A stretch of 64,000 nt of DNA from an uncultured Treponema sp. (GTDB lineage Bacteria; Spirochaetota; Spirochaetia; Treponematales; Treponemataceae). The notes below the pieces were generated by a model. That model did not search any database, was not told where the DNA came from, and worked only from the letters and a program-made list of their open reading frames with translations. A program made the position numbers and the translations under genes. Of this stretch, positions 1-4,267 are shown in pieces (positions within the stretch are counted from its first letter, which is position 1; each line of letters begins with the position of its first letter). Location of the stretch: NCBI GenBank assembly GCA_946410085.1, contig CAMJZA010000010.1, forward strand, positions 1 to 64,000, in the 5' to 3' direction.

Positions 1-1529
1 GCCATGTCGTAGCCGTCCTTGATGCTCTTCGCCTTGCCTGTCAGGTAGAGCAGTGCGCCCGAGTTGAGTCCGACCGCATAGCGGAGGGTCTTGCGTCCCT
101 TTCCGTCGAGCAGTTCCATCGCAATTTTTGCGTTCTCCTCGCCGATGCCGCCGGAAAGCTCTTCCTCCCGTGCGTCGGTGATGCCGTAGTCGGCAGGGTT
201 GATGGTATAGCGGTATTCCTTCCCGTCCTTGTTTATCTGGAAGACTTTGGTCGGTGCGCAGGGGGAAATCTCGTCAAGCCCGTCGTCACTTGCAATGACC
301 ATGACCCGCTTGATGCCGAGGTTCTTGGCTGCATGGGCGTATGTTTCGAGCAGCTCGGGACTGTAGACGCCCAGAACCGCATACTTTGCTTCGGCTGGGT
401 TCAGCAGGGGGCCGAGCAGGTTCATGACGGTCTTGATGCCCAGCGCCTTGCGGACGGGAGCTGCGAAACGCATGGCGGGGTGATAGACGGGGGCCATAAG
501 GAATGCGAATCCCGTCCGGGCGATCATTTTTTCCGTGTTGCACGGCTTGTTGTCGATCTTGATGTTGAGTGCTTCAAAGAAATCCGCCGCACCGGACTTG
601 CTGGAGACTGCCCGGTTGCCGTGCTTGGCAACCGTCTGTCCGCAGGAAGCAACAATGATGGAACTGAGGGAGGATATGTTGAAGCTGCCCTTGCAGTCCC
701 CGCCCGTACCGACTATCTCTGCAATGGACTCGGAGTCCACGTGGAGCGGGGTTTTCTTTTTCAGGAGGACTTCGGCACATCCGGCCAGCTCGTCTGCGCT
801 GATGCCGTTTCCTGCCATTGCAGTCAGCATGGATGCCGTGATGCGTTCGTCTATGTCTCCGTCCGTCAGGTTGTCCATAAAGAGGGCTGCCTGTTCCCGG
901 CTCAGGTGCTTTTTTTCAAAGAGCAGCTGGTTCAGGTATGCGGAGGCCGGGAATTTTTCCCGCCGGTAGTTCAGGAAGGACTTGAAAATCTCGTCTCCCT
1001 GCTGGCTTGCAATGGACTCGGGGTGGAACTGGACGCCTTCGATGAGCATGGACTTGTGGCGGACTCCCATGATGTCGCCGTCACGTGAGCGAGCCGTTAC
1101 CTCAAAATCCCTGCTGAGCGTGCTGCCATCTATTGCCAGCGAGTGGTAGCGGGTGAACGATGCCTTGAGCCCGATTGTCCTGAACAGTCCCTTTCCGTCA
1201 AGGTCCAGTTCTTCCACAACGCCGTGGCAGATGCGTTTTGCCTGGATGATTCTGGCGCCGAAAGCTTCTCCGATCGCCTGATGGCCCAGGCAGATGCCGA
1301 GAATCGGGATTTTTCCCGCAAAGTGCCTTATTGCTTCTACGCTTATTCCTGCGTCGGCCGGTGTTCCCGGTCCGGGGCTTATGACCAGACGGCCCGGCTG
1401 CAGGGACTCAAGTTCTTCTACCGTCACTTCCTTTGAGCGGACGACCTTTACCTCGTCCCCGGAGAGCCGCTGCAGGGCCTGCACCACGTTGTAGGTGAAG
1501 CTGTCGTAGTTGTCTATTACCAGTATCAT
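1..1529 (-). CDS. trpGD: Anthranilate synthase glutaminase / anthranilate phosphoribosyltransferase fusion (3' end beyond window)
   Basis: This bifunctional tryptophan enzyme pairs a glutaminase that feeds ammonia to TrpE with the phosphoribosyltransferase of the next step. I translated it by hand because it runs off the window edge. The class I amidotransferase triad is visible: Cys80 in GICLGH, and His169 and Glu171 in HPE. A linker near residue 190 leads into the TrpD domain, which carries the PRPP-binding GTGGD at about residues 274-278. About 509 residues lie in the window; the E. coli TrpGD fusion is about 530, so only the last few tens are missing. The start ATG at 1529 has an AAGGAG site. 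It follows trpE by 25 nt and is surely cotranscribed with it. Confidence 0.95.
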   Translation of the reverse strand, partial: MILVIDNYDSFTYNVVQALQRLSGDEVKVVRSKEVTVEELESLQPGRLVISPGPGTPADAGISVEAIRHFAGKIPILGICLGHQAIGEAFGARIIQAKRICHGVVEELDLDGKGLFRTIGLKASFTRYHSLAIDGSTLSRDFEVTARSRDGDIMGVRHKSMLIEGVQFHPESIASQQGDEIFKSFLNYRREKFPASAYLNQLLFEKKHLSREQAALFMDNLTDGDIDERITASMLTAMAGNGISADELAGCAEVLLKKKTPLHVDSESIAEIVGTGGDCKGSFNISSLSSIIVASCGQTVAKHGNRAVSSKSGAADFFEALNIKIDNKPCNTEKMIARTGFAFLMAPVYHPAMRFAAPVRKALGIKTVMNLLGPLLNPAEAKYAVLGVYSPELLETYAHAAKNLGIKRVMVIASDDGLDEISPCAPTKVFQINKDGKEYRYTINPADYGITDAREEELSGGIGEENAKIAMELLDGKGRKTLRYAVGLNSGALLYLTGKAKSIKDGYDM

Positions 1530-1554
1530 AGTGTATTCTCCTTTCCTTCTGTCC

Positions 1555-3030
1555 TCATTTTTTTCCTTCCAGAACTGCCTTGAGTGCGCCGAGTTTTTCG
1601 TTCGTCTCTTCCCATTCACGGTCGGGATTGGAGTCGTAGACGATGCCGCCGCCTGCCTGCAGGGTCCAGGTGCTGCCCTGCTTGAGGGCACAGCGGATGC
1701 CGATGCAGAAGTCCAGGTCCCCCGTTGTCTGCAGGTAGCCGATTGCTCCGGCATAGAAGCGCCGCTTTATATGCTCCAGGCGGCTCAGGATTTCAATCGC
1801 ACTGATTTTCGGCGAGCCGGAGACCGTTCCTGCCGGAAATGCCGAACGCAGGACCTGAATCTGCTTTATGCCCGCTTTCACCTTGCCCTGCACGTCGCTG
1901 ACCAGGTGCATGACGTGGCTGAAGAATTCGCAGTCCATGAAGCGCGTTACTTCTACGCTGCCGCTTTCGCACACCCTGCCCAGGTCGTTGCGGGCAAGGT
2001 CAACGAGCATCAGGTGCTCCTGCCGTTCCTTGTTGTCGGCGAGCAGTTCCGCCTTGAGGGCATCGTCTTCGAGCGCATCCTTGCCCCGCCGCCGTGTTCC
2101 CGCGATGGGGCGGATTGCGGCAATGCCCTCCCGGACGCGCACGAGGCTTTCCGGCGAAGAGCCGATGAGCTGCCTGTCACCGAAGTCCAGGTAGACGAGG
2201 TAGGGGGAGGGGTTGAGTGAGCGCAGGCGGCGGTATATTTCCAGTGCCGACGATTCGCATTCCAGCTGCAGGCGGCGGCTGGGAACCGCCTGAAAGATGT
2301 CGCCTGCGACGATGTGCTTCTTGAGCTCAACGACCTTGTGCTTGTACTCTTTTTCGGACAGGGCCAGGTCGGTCAGCGTCCGGCAGGGCTTTGCTTCTTC
2401 CGGCGGGGCAAGATAGCTGAAGTCCAGATCGTTGAGCCGTTGTTTCAGGTCGTCGACGGTTTTCTGCAGGTCAATCTGGTGTTCGGTATAGTTGAAGGCA
2501 AAGATGTGCATCGTCTCGGTAAAGTGGTCAAAAACAATGTACAGGTGGCCCACGATGAACTCGCTTTCGGGGATTTTCAGTTCATCGGTCTGGGGGGCGA
2601 GCTGAATCGTGTCGCAGCGGGCACAGAACTCGTAGCTCAGGTAGCCGACGCCGCTTGCCGGGACGGGAATCCCCTGCACGGGCAGTTTGTTTTCTCCGGC
2701 GACATACAGGAGCGCATCGAGGATATCTTCCTTGTGCGGAATTTTGCTTCCGGGGGAGATTGTTTCTATTGTCGCACCGGAACTGCTTGCGGTTTTCTCC
2801 GTGAAGGGAACCCGGCGGCCGTCGATGATGAAGGCGATGCCCTCATCATCCTGCAGGATGTGGAAGGCTTCTTCGGCCATGATGATTGAATAGCGCTCCT
2901 TGCCCAGGTTGAATCTTGCACTTTCAAGAATGGCCTTTGCTCCTATTTTCCTCGCGAGCAGATAGGGCGTATAGCGGTCACTCGGCAGTTTCATGTATAT
3001 GGTGTCGGTTCTCTGTATCATTGTGCTCAT
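1555..3030 (-). CDS. trpE: Anthranilate synthase component I
   Basis: Makes anthranilate from chorismate together with the TrpG domain encoded next. The 491-residue length is normal. An N-terminal ILES stretch corresponds to the tryptophan feedback region (LLES in characterised enzymes), and the chorismate-binding core shows IAGTRRRG, LMLVDLARNDLG and GTVSGSPK. Two starts are possible. The ATG at 3030 is only 2 nt from a strong AGGAGG, while the ATG at 3021 has a better 11-nt spacing. A consensus promoter lies about 60 nt upstream. I see no run of Trp codons, T-box or TRAP-like repeats in the short leader, so attenuation is not evident. Confidence 0.95.
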   Translation of the reverse strand: MSTMIQRTDTIYMKLPSDRYTPYLLARKIGAKAILESARFNLGKERYSIIMAEEAFHILQDDEGIAFIIDGRRVPFTEKTASSSGATIETISPGSKIPHKEDILDALLYVAGENKLPVQGIPVPASGVGYLSYEFCARCDTIQLAPQTDELKIPESEFIVGHLYIVFDHFTETMHIFAFNYTEHQIDLQKTVDDLKQRLNDLDFSYLAPPEEAKPCRTLTDLALSEKEYKHKVVELKKHIVAGDIFQAVPSRRLQLECESSALEIYRRLRSLNPSPYLVYLDFGDRQLIGSSPESLVRVREGIAAIRPIAGTRRRGKDALEDDALKAELLADNKERQEHLMLVDLARNDLGRVCESGSVEVTRFMDCEFFSHVMHLVSDVQGKVKAGIKQIQVLRSAFPAGTVSGSPKISAIEILSRLEHIKRRFYAGAIGYLQTTGDLDFCIGIRCALKQGSTWTLQAGGGIVYDSNPDREWEETNEKLGALKAVLEGKK

Positions 3031-3266: not shown

Positions 3267-3295
3267 TTGACAGTTTCCCGGAAAAGCCCTATACT
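3267..3295 (+). promoter_or_regulatory. Promoter of small RNA
   Basis: TTGACA (3267-3272), a 17-bp spacer and TATACT (3290-3295) match the promoter consensus nearly perfectly. No start codon with a plausible ORF follows before a terminator about 60 nt downstream, so the product should be a short untranslated RNA. Confidence 0.8.
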
Positions 3296-3301
3296 CAAAT
3301 C

Positions 3302-3392
3302 AGCTTGTAAATAAGCTGATAAACTCTCTCCGATTGCCCGAAAGGGCAGGGCGGTCTTGGGATGTAAGTCTCGAGACCGCCTTTGTTTTTTG
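3302..3392 (+). ncRNA. Predicted free-standing small RNA (~90 nt)
   Basis: A strong promoter, three successive hairpins and an intrinsic terminator define an RNA of about 90 nt. The hairpins are CAGCTT/AAGCTG with a 6-nt loop (3301-3318), TGCCC-GAAA-GGGCA with a GNRA tetraloop (3335-3348), and the terminator stem (3350-3381). The downstream glycosyltransferase has its own promoter after the terminator, so this RNA is not obviously its leader. I do not recognise it as a known riboswitch or as 6S RNA. It could be a trans-acting sRNA or a terminated leader with occasional read-through. Confidence 0.6.
3350..3392 (+). terminator. Intrinsic terminator of the small RNA
   Basis: The 8-bp stem GGCGGTCT/AGACCGCC (3350-3357 with 3374-3381) is followed by TTTGTTTTTT, a typical rho-independent terminator. 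Confidence 0.85.
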
Positions 3393-3443: not shown

Positions 3444-3472
3444 TTGAAAAAGAAGCCTTAGTCTGCTATACT
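3444..3472 (+). promoter_or_regulatory. Leaderless-type promoter of glycosyltransferase
   Basis: TTGAAA (3444-3449), a 17-bp spacer and TATACT (3467-3472) lie directly before the gene. Only 6 nt separate the -10 box from the ATG at 3479, so transcription should begin at or next to the A of the start codon. Confidence 0.75.
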
Positions 3473-3478
3473 CATTTC

Positions 3479-4267
3479 ATGGCTGCGCTAAGCGAATCAC
3501 TGAAGCTTCTTGTTGTTATTCCTACCTATAATGAGATTGAAAATATCCGGGACATTATTCCTGCCGTGCTGGCGGTGATACCGCAGGATGCTGCCGTTCT
3601 TGTTGCGGATGACGCTTCCCCGGACGGTACGGGAGCAGCCGTGCGGGAACTGATGAACGAATTTTCCGGCAGGCTGTATCTCAAGGAAGGGCAGGGAAAG
3701 CAGGGGCTTGCCACTGCCTATATCTCGTCTTTTAAGTGGGCTATGAATCCTGCGAATGTCGATGGAAAAGAATTCACCGCCTTTCTTGAGATGGACGCAG
3801 ATTTTTCCCATAAGCCGGAGTATATTCCGCACATGCTGGAAGCCCTTGCCTCCTGTGATGTCGTCATCGGAAGCCGGAATATCAGGGGCGGGGCGGTTGA
3901 AGGCTGGTCAGCCCTGCGGAACTGCATATCAAAGGGCGGTTCCCTCTATTCCCGCCTGGTTCTGGCATGTCCGGTAAAGGACCTGACGGGAGGCTTTAAC
4001 CTCTGGCGCAAAACGGCACTGGAGCGGATAGGGCTTGATTCCATAATCTCCCGGGGCTACGCATTCCAGATCGAGATGAAGTACCGGGCGTACAGGGCCG
4101 GCTGTTCCATCAAGGAAATCCCCATCGTTTTCCCTGACCGTAAGCGCGGTCAGTCAAAGATGAGCGGGGGAATCTTTACCGAAGCACTGAAAGCTGTCTG
4201 GAAGATACGGAAGGATTGCCGGACTGCCGGTAAAACCGGGACTGCTGCGGGAGTTACCGCCCGGTGA
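3479..4267 (+). CDS. Polyprenyl-phosphate glycosyltransferase, GT2 (dolichyl-phosphate-mannose synthase-like)
   Basis: A 262-residue cytosolic GT2 enzyme of the DPM1 type, which moves a sugar from a nucleotide donor to a polyprenyl phosphate on the inner face of the membrane. Visible motifs are VVIPTYNE near the N-terminus, VADDASPDGT, the metal-binding DAD in FLEMDADFSHKP, and TGGFNLWR. It has no C-terminal membrane segments, so it is the short soluble form. An upstream in-frame ATG at 3383 would put the promoter inside the gene, so ATG 3479 is preferred; it has no ribosome site because the mRNA should be leaderless. The stop overlaps the next gene by 4 nt, which points to a lipid-linked sugar synthase-flippase unit. 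Confidence 0.88.
   Translation: MAALSESLKLLVVIPTYNEIENIRDIIPAVLAVIPQDAAVLVADDASPDGTGAAVRELMNEFSGRLYLKEGQGKQGLATAYISSFKWAMNPANVDGKEFTAFLEMDADFSHKPEYIPHMLEALASCDVVIGSRNIRGGAVEGWSALRNCISKGGSLYSRLVLACPVKDLTGGFNLWRKTALERIGLDSIISRGYAFQIEMKYRAYRAGCSIKEIPIVFPDRKRGQSKMSGGIFTEALKAVWKIRKDCRTAGKTGTAAGVTAR

Follow-up and report, generated by a model that had tools for sequence, protein, structure and literature searches.

What is encoded by the DNA between trpE and a glycosyltransferase gene in the 64,000-nt stretch of an uncultured Treponema sp. that we analyzed (hereafter the window)? A near-consensus promoter had been proposed here in the first-pass annotation and was borne out, with a -35 element TTGACA (3267..3272, + strand; kept at a fixed distance in homologues) and a -10 element TATACT (3290..3295, +) separated by a 17-nt spacer, scoring 11/12 across 3267-3295 and placing the expected start at ~3302. 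Based on the positions of the promoter and the terminator, from which both ends are deduced, the predicted sRNA would occupy 3302..3390 (+, ~88 nt). Folding of this putative transcript yielded three hairpins (MFE -46.2 kcal/mol, z -6.94; 0/200 shuffles as good), the same count as the two internal hairpins, one with a GNRA loop, and intrinsic terminator noted earlier: hairpin 1, AGCUUG-UAAA-UAAGCU (3302..3317, +, with pairing out to 3299-3320 in the fold); hairpin 2, UGCCC-GAAA-GGGCA with its GNRA loop (3335..3348, +); and hairpin 3 (3349-3383), which is followed by TTTGTTTTTT and together with this U-tract makes up the intrinsic terminator (3349..3391, +). Between hairpins 1 and 2 lies a single-stranded linker, GAUAAACUCUCUCCGAU (3318..3334, +), which we propose as the seed, with an 11-nt invariant core, AAACUCUCUCC (3321-3331, +). 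The absence of a plausible ORF was likewise upheld, as all three frames of the conserved 5' part are interrupted by stop codons; a peptide gene was rejected on these stops and on the conservation of promoter, fold and terminator. Judged from sequence evidence, the locus has what an independent trans-acting sRNA unit should have, namely a promoter and an intrinsic terminator of its own and no ORF.

The neighboring genes are trpE (anthranilate synthase component I, 1555..3030, - strand), which is divergent with a promoter at 3121-3093 on the minus strand, and a glycosyltransferase family 2 gene (3479..4267, +). By eye, the gene adjoining trpE (1-1530, minus strand) resembles a trpG-trpD fusion. 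The separate promoter anticipated for the downstream gene beyond the terminator was found at 3444..3472 (+), outside the sRNA; it ends ~7 nt before the ATG (3444-3479), and the glycosyltransferase mRNA may be leaderless.

Is this arrangement peculiar to the window? A DNA search with a 98-nt stretch gave matches in 32/59 related genomes, always to the same ~40 nt. Covariance model R1 matches 3300-3384 of the window at 72 bits. For the distribution, the covariance model was built from 19 copies and the search, which the first-pass annotation had suggested as a check, found the sRNA in 173/200 genomes of the genus (80/85 good ones) and spoke for neither a peptide gene nor a single-gene leader. 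Conservation on this scale makes a chance origin untenable. Each genome has 1-3 copies, with 36 genomes harboring two or three (counted from the result table). Across the order, 86/294 genomes carry the sRNA, in 8 of 83 sampled genera, all from one family, the Treponemataceae, and a phylum-wide sample gave a single match outside this family, which was at chance level (E 0.008). Among the named carriers are T. bryantii, T. ruminis, T. berlinense, T. porcinum, T. socranskii and a T. brennaborense MAG; in the large searches, which had stricter filters, there was no match in the genera that probably include T. pallidum and T. denticola. As judged by these matches, the predicted sRNA gene is present in nearly every gut and rumen Treponema.

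The copies also carry their own signals for transcription. Promoter hexamers scoring at least 9/12 precede 144/151 distinct copies vs. 36 expected from shuffled upstream sequence, and 142/151 end in 5 or more consecutive T; these 151 copies were chosen by the linker 11-mer, the 100% presence of which among them is by construction. In most, the spacer is 17 nt long and the -10 element lies 24-26 nt before the linker; the distance to the invariant linker is 25 nt in 97/144 scored copies, as in the window. The commonest locus is radA-sRNA-cysE, with cysE on the opposite strand and facing the sRNA (names such as radA, cysE and nusG were assigned by reading translated sequences), and the window copy lies elsewhere, between trpE and the glycosyltransferase gene. 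About 87/149 sites adjoin radA and/or cysE, 34 of these also being near secE/nusG/ribosomal protein genes; 56 sites are at other places, represent chance matches in loci added later or lie in loci too short to judge. Since the loci differ between genomes, the sRNA is not the leader of any single gene, and the conservation of promoter, fold and terminator amid varying neighbors supports, at the level of sequence, the free-standing sRNA originally proposed.

These loci bear on the question of whether the element acts in cis on the downstream gene, as a leader or riboswitch. The position of the window copy upstream of the glycosyltransferase gene would fit such a role, but the strong terminator, the separate downstream promoter, the lack of an Rfam match and neighbors that elsewhere are different or convergent (cysE at the commonest locus) render it very improbable; neither a constant downstream gene nor the lack of an independent end, as a riboswitch or cis leader would have, was found. 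For the glycosyltransferase gene in particular, we rejected a riboswitch or cis leader on account of the terminator, the downstream promoter and the changing neighbors. As for known families, Rfam 15 gave none at the gathering threshold in the window, with chance-level matches only in a permissive search, and tRNAs only in 20 homologous loci, in agreement with the earlier remark that the hairpins match no known riboswitch class. A CRISPR tracrRNA would share the size, the three hairpins and the terminator, but has next to no chance of being correct, given several unlinked copies per genome, no Rfam match and a linker antisense that has few matches per genome and never occurs as a repeat array; it was rejected because no array, and hence no complementarity to CRISPR repeats, was seen among the matches to the antisense pattern. 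We found no description of this RNA in the literature searched. A 2022 survey listed no more than 6 annotated sRNAs across the Spirochaetes (PMC9029176), the Treponema candidates named in another study lie upstream of ribosomal protein genes (PMC8040213), and Hfq is reported to be present in Leptospiraceae and absent from Borrelia (PMC11607428).

Which part of the RNA is under constraint? In an unguided alignment, the three hairpins showed 48 double-changed cells vs. 14.6 in shuffled alignments and 4-18 with the partners slid. Among 80 distinct copies, 22/24 pairs had double changes, with a score of 0.607 vs. 0.176 shuffled and at most 0.125 slid, in an alignment that was made on the model, leans to it and includes three phage sites. 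Compensatory changes were present in 7/7 pairs of hairpin 2 and 10/10 pairs of hairpin 3, while hairpin 1 is swapped in distant species for GCCAC/GUGGC, GAACC/GGUUC or GAUUG/CAAUC with AAACUCUCUCC unchanged. Both hairpins flanking AAACUCUCUCC vary in distant species while the linker core stays, and its constancy is based on its retention in nearly all copies found by the covariance model. In many homologues (e.g., L022, L052 and L075), the terminator hairpin is also topped by a GUU loop on a short stem that covaries (AGU-GUU-ACU, GGC-GUU-GCC and AAC-GUU-GUU), a feature absent from the window copy. On the alignments, what stays fixed in this predicted RNA is the single-stranded linker rather than the hairpins. 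A pairing seed looks like this, conserved and unpaired with variable stems on either side, and an unpaired conserved putative seed with covarying flanking stems, as expected of a trans-acting sRNA, was found here.

The trans-encoded base-pairing sRNAs RsaE/RoxS and LhrC have C/U-rich, anti-Shine-Dalgarno-like seeds. The Treponema RNA resembles them in its small size, its own promoter and terminator, an unpaired pyrimidine-rich putative seed between hairpins and several copies in some genomes, but differs in sequence and fold, in its restriction to Treponemataceae and in the lack of an Rfam match. Our best reading of the sequence is that it represents a new family of trans-acting base-pairing sRNA. 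It is probably, we surmise, a free-standing trans-acting RNA of ~88 nt with a CU-rich linker that would pair with G-rich leader sites, altering translation.

Host targets are less evident. The extended seed complement was not enriched in host genomes, with 49 matches of DGGAGAGAGTTT, some of which are the sRNA genes themselves, vs. 44 for reversed controls; a seed complement before ATG in host genomes (GGAGAGAGN3-8ATG, 29 vs. 17) was not counted as enrichment, and a bipartite linker-plus-loop pattern yielded no enrichment or mostly noise in these genomes. When a Shine-Dalgarno site was required, there were 15 matches vs. 4 controls in 196 host genomes. Four of the 15 have TTTCGGAGAGAGTTT in common and lie in intercistronic gaps, where TCGGAGAGAGUUU is followed by AGGAG and ATG; three of the four are behind BspA-like leucine-rich-repeat genes, three of the four show UUUAC near the expected position of a second contact, and predicted duplexes for the four gave z of -1.1 to -4.4. 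The candidates at L424:10000, L425:10000 and L426:1080 lie in gaps that immediately follow BspA-like LRR_5 genes and precede small genes, most of them unknown. As candidate targets, these intercistronic sites are suggestive only. Given the lack of long-site enrichment, host targets may use shorter pairing. A host target that is not evident, and a linker more constant than seeds usually are, would also be in keeping with a binding site for a pyrimidine-rich RNA-binding protein, with the RNA sequestering that protein; we deem this unlikely, as exact antisense copies in phage leaders, described below, would be unexpected if the sense linker only bound protein.

Where, then, are strong partners of the linker? 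A scan of IMG/VR for the linker core gave one contig, L207, in which the copies lie antisense to the surrounding operon, and the antisense element also occurs in relatives of the L207 phage, found by protein search, and in one further contig. Altogether, the exact linker antisense, CGGAGAGAGUUUAUC, is found just upstream of Shine-Dalgarno sites at 8 sites in five IMG/VR contigs (3, 2, 1, 1 and 1 per contig in whole-record searches); a whole-record search of a sixth, more distant relative found no antisense site. Read in the phage sense, the order is CGGAGAGAGUUUAUC, usually a hairpin, AAGGAG(G) and ATG, with AAGGAG(G) and ATG following 7/8 sites and five sites lying 17-19 nt before the Shine-Dalgarno sequence. 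No promoter was recognized by eye on the strand opposite to the sites, and since a Shine-Dalgarno sequence follows, we read them as mRNA elements. The L305 contig has no detectable protein in common with the first phage group (11 kb compared), implying that by sequence the sites occur in at least two kinds of phage, unrelated to each other. Other virome matches to the antisense pattern, looser scans included, are almost all inside long reading frames, and the leader element is therefore seen only in the five contigs; a bipartite linker-plus-loop scan of the virome gave coincidences only. Public phage records had no match to the sRNA and plasmid records had chance-level matches only. When 17 kb of phage sequence was compared by blast with 196 Treponema genomes, scoring only two candidates per genome, the sRNA gene was the best match in most, the longest match being 34 nt. 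A single relative of the phage terminase, 38% identical, was found among 274 genomes of Treponemataceae, in a prophage region of Treponema sp. Marseille-Q4130, 60 kb of which contained no antisense site. We infer that the phages with antisense sites infect Treponema.

The phage leaders appear to offer a second contact. Their hairpin stems differ (AGCUU/AAGCU, CUUGG/CCAAG, GUAC/GUAC and GUAG/CUAC), while the sequence at their tops (UUACAAG, AUUUAC or UUAUAAG) is kept and complements CUUGUAAAU atop hairpin 1 of the sRNA. Predicted sRNA-phage duplexes have energies of -34.7 to -63.5 kcal/mol (z -2.9 to -7.8) and use both contacts. Antisense control with structured partners is known from CopA/CopT of plasmid R1 and from OxyS-fhlA; the modeled pairing is similar in joining linear pairing to contacts between hairpin tops, but here one partner is encoded by the host and the other by the phage, and the stems on the two sides vary independently. 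AAAACUC or AACUCU precedes sites 1 and 3 of L207 and site 2 of L274 and can fold back on GAGAGUUU; by such a fold-back, the phage leader may keep its own site hidden until the sRNA frees it. The genes downstream of the sites are small and unlike each other, and two encode 7-residue peptides, MRMPQAP and MYWPTAP (L207:11204-11260, +, and L298, minus strand, with the site at 1986), which have equal length and ending and are perhaps leader peptides.

These findings suggest, from sequence, a base-pairing interaction between phages and a core RNA of their host. In the literature searched, the nearest concept by analogy is AgvB, a phage-derived anti-sRNA acting against GcvB in E. coli (PMC4104026). 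As in that pair, a core sRNA of the host has its seed matched by complementary phage RNA; unlike AgvB, the phage complement is no separate small RNA and resides in leaders and intercistronic gaps by Shine-Dalgarno sites, within the gene leaders of an operon and up to three per contig. One rival to our reading is accordingly that the phage sites are decoys or sponges, antisense copies of the seed that titrate the host sRNA and free host genes, like AgvB and GcvB. Perfect complementarity of 14-15 nt in most sites, and up to 33-34 nt in one, together with three sites within one phage operon, would suit a sponge, but the sites are within mRNAs and not in a separate small RNA, and 7/8 stand directly before a Shine-Dalgarno site, five of them at 17-19 nt, a placement that a mere sponge would not need. 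We regard titration as a serious possibility, though not the one we would expect. Another rival is that the sRNA is an innate anti-phage RNA that binds and blocks the leaders of early phage genes. The phage leaders are the only strong antisense partners found, as this predicts; however, the sites are intact in diverged phages though few mutations would suffice for escape, and the sRNA varies very little and is carried almost universally, making an anti-phage function quite unlikely. Because the sites are nearly fixed in place before the Shine-Dalgarno sequence, we favor, on the strength of this placement, a model in which the host RNA controls the phage cistron that follows, with titration as the main rival. 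As a tentative extension, unrelated Treponema phages might use the core host sRNA as a regulator in trans, with a portable leader element (the linker antisense, a hairpin matching the top of sRNA hairpin 1 and a Shine-Dalgarno site) controlling several small non-homologous genes.

We therefore propose to view the trans-acting sRNA as follows: 1) transcription from a sigma-70-type promoter of its own would begin at hairpin 1 and stop at the intrinsic terminator; 2) GAUAAACUCUCUCCGAU would be exposed between hairpins 1 and 2 and would pair with G-rich sites (CGGAGAGAGUUUA...) that closely precede Shine-Dalgarno sequences, both in mRNA leaders and between cistrons, phage mRNAs with G-rich leader sites probably being among the targets; 3) in some targets, the top of hairpin 1 (CUUGUAA) would additionally pair with a target hairpin (UUACAAG); and 4) pairing would change translation of the next cistron, in either direction. 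If this is true, the Treponemataceae possess a family-wide sRNA whose seed can be tested and for which phages supply natural partner sites. It then becomes directly testable which genes such a core sRNA of spirochaetes regulates, and whether antisense copies of a host sRNA seed are kept in phage leaders for reading that RNA or for titrating it.
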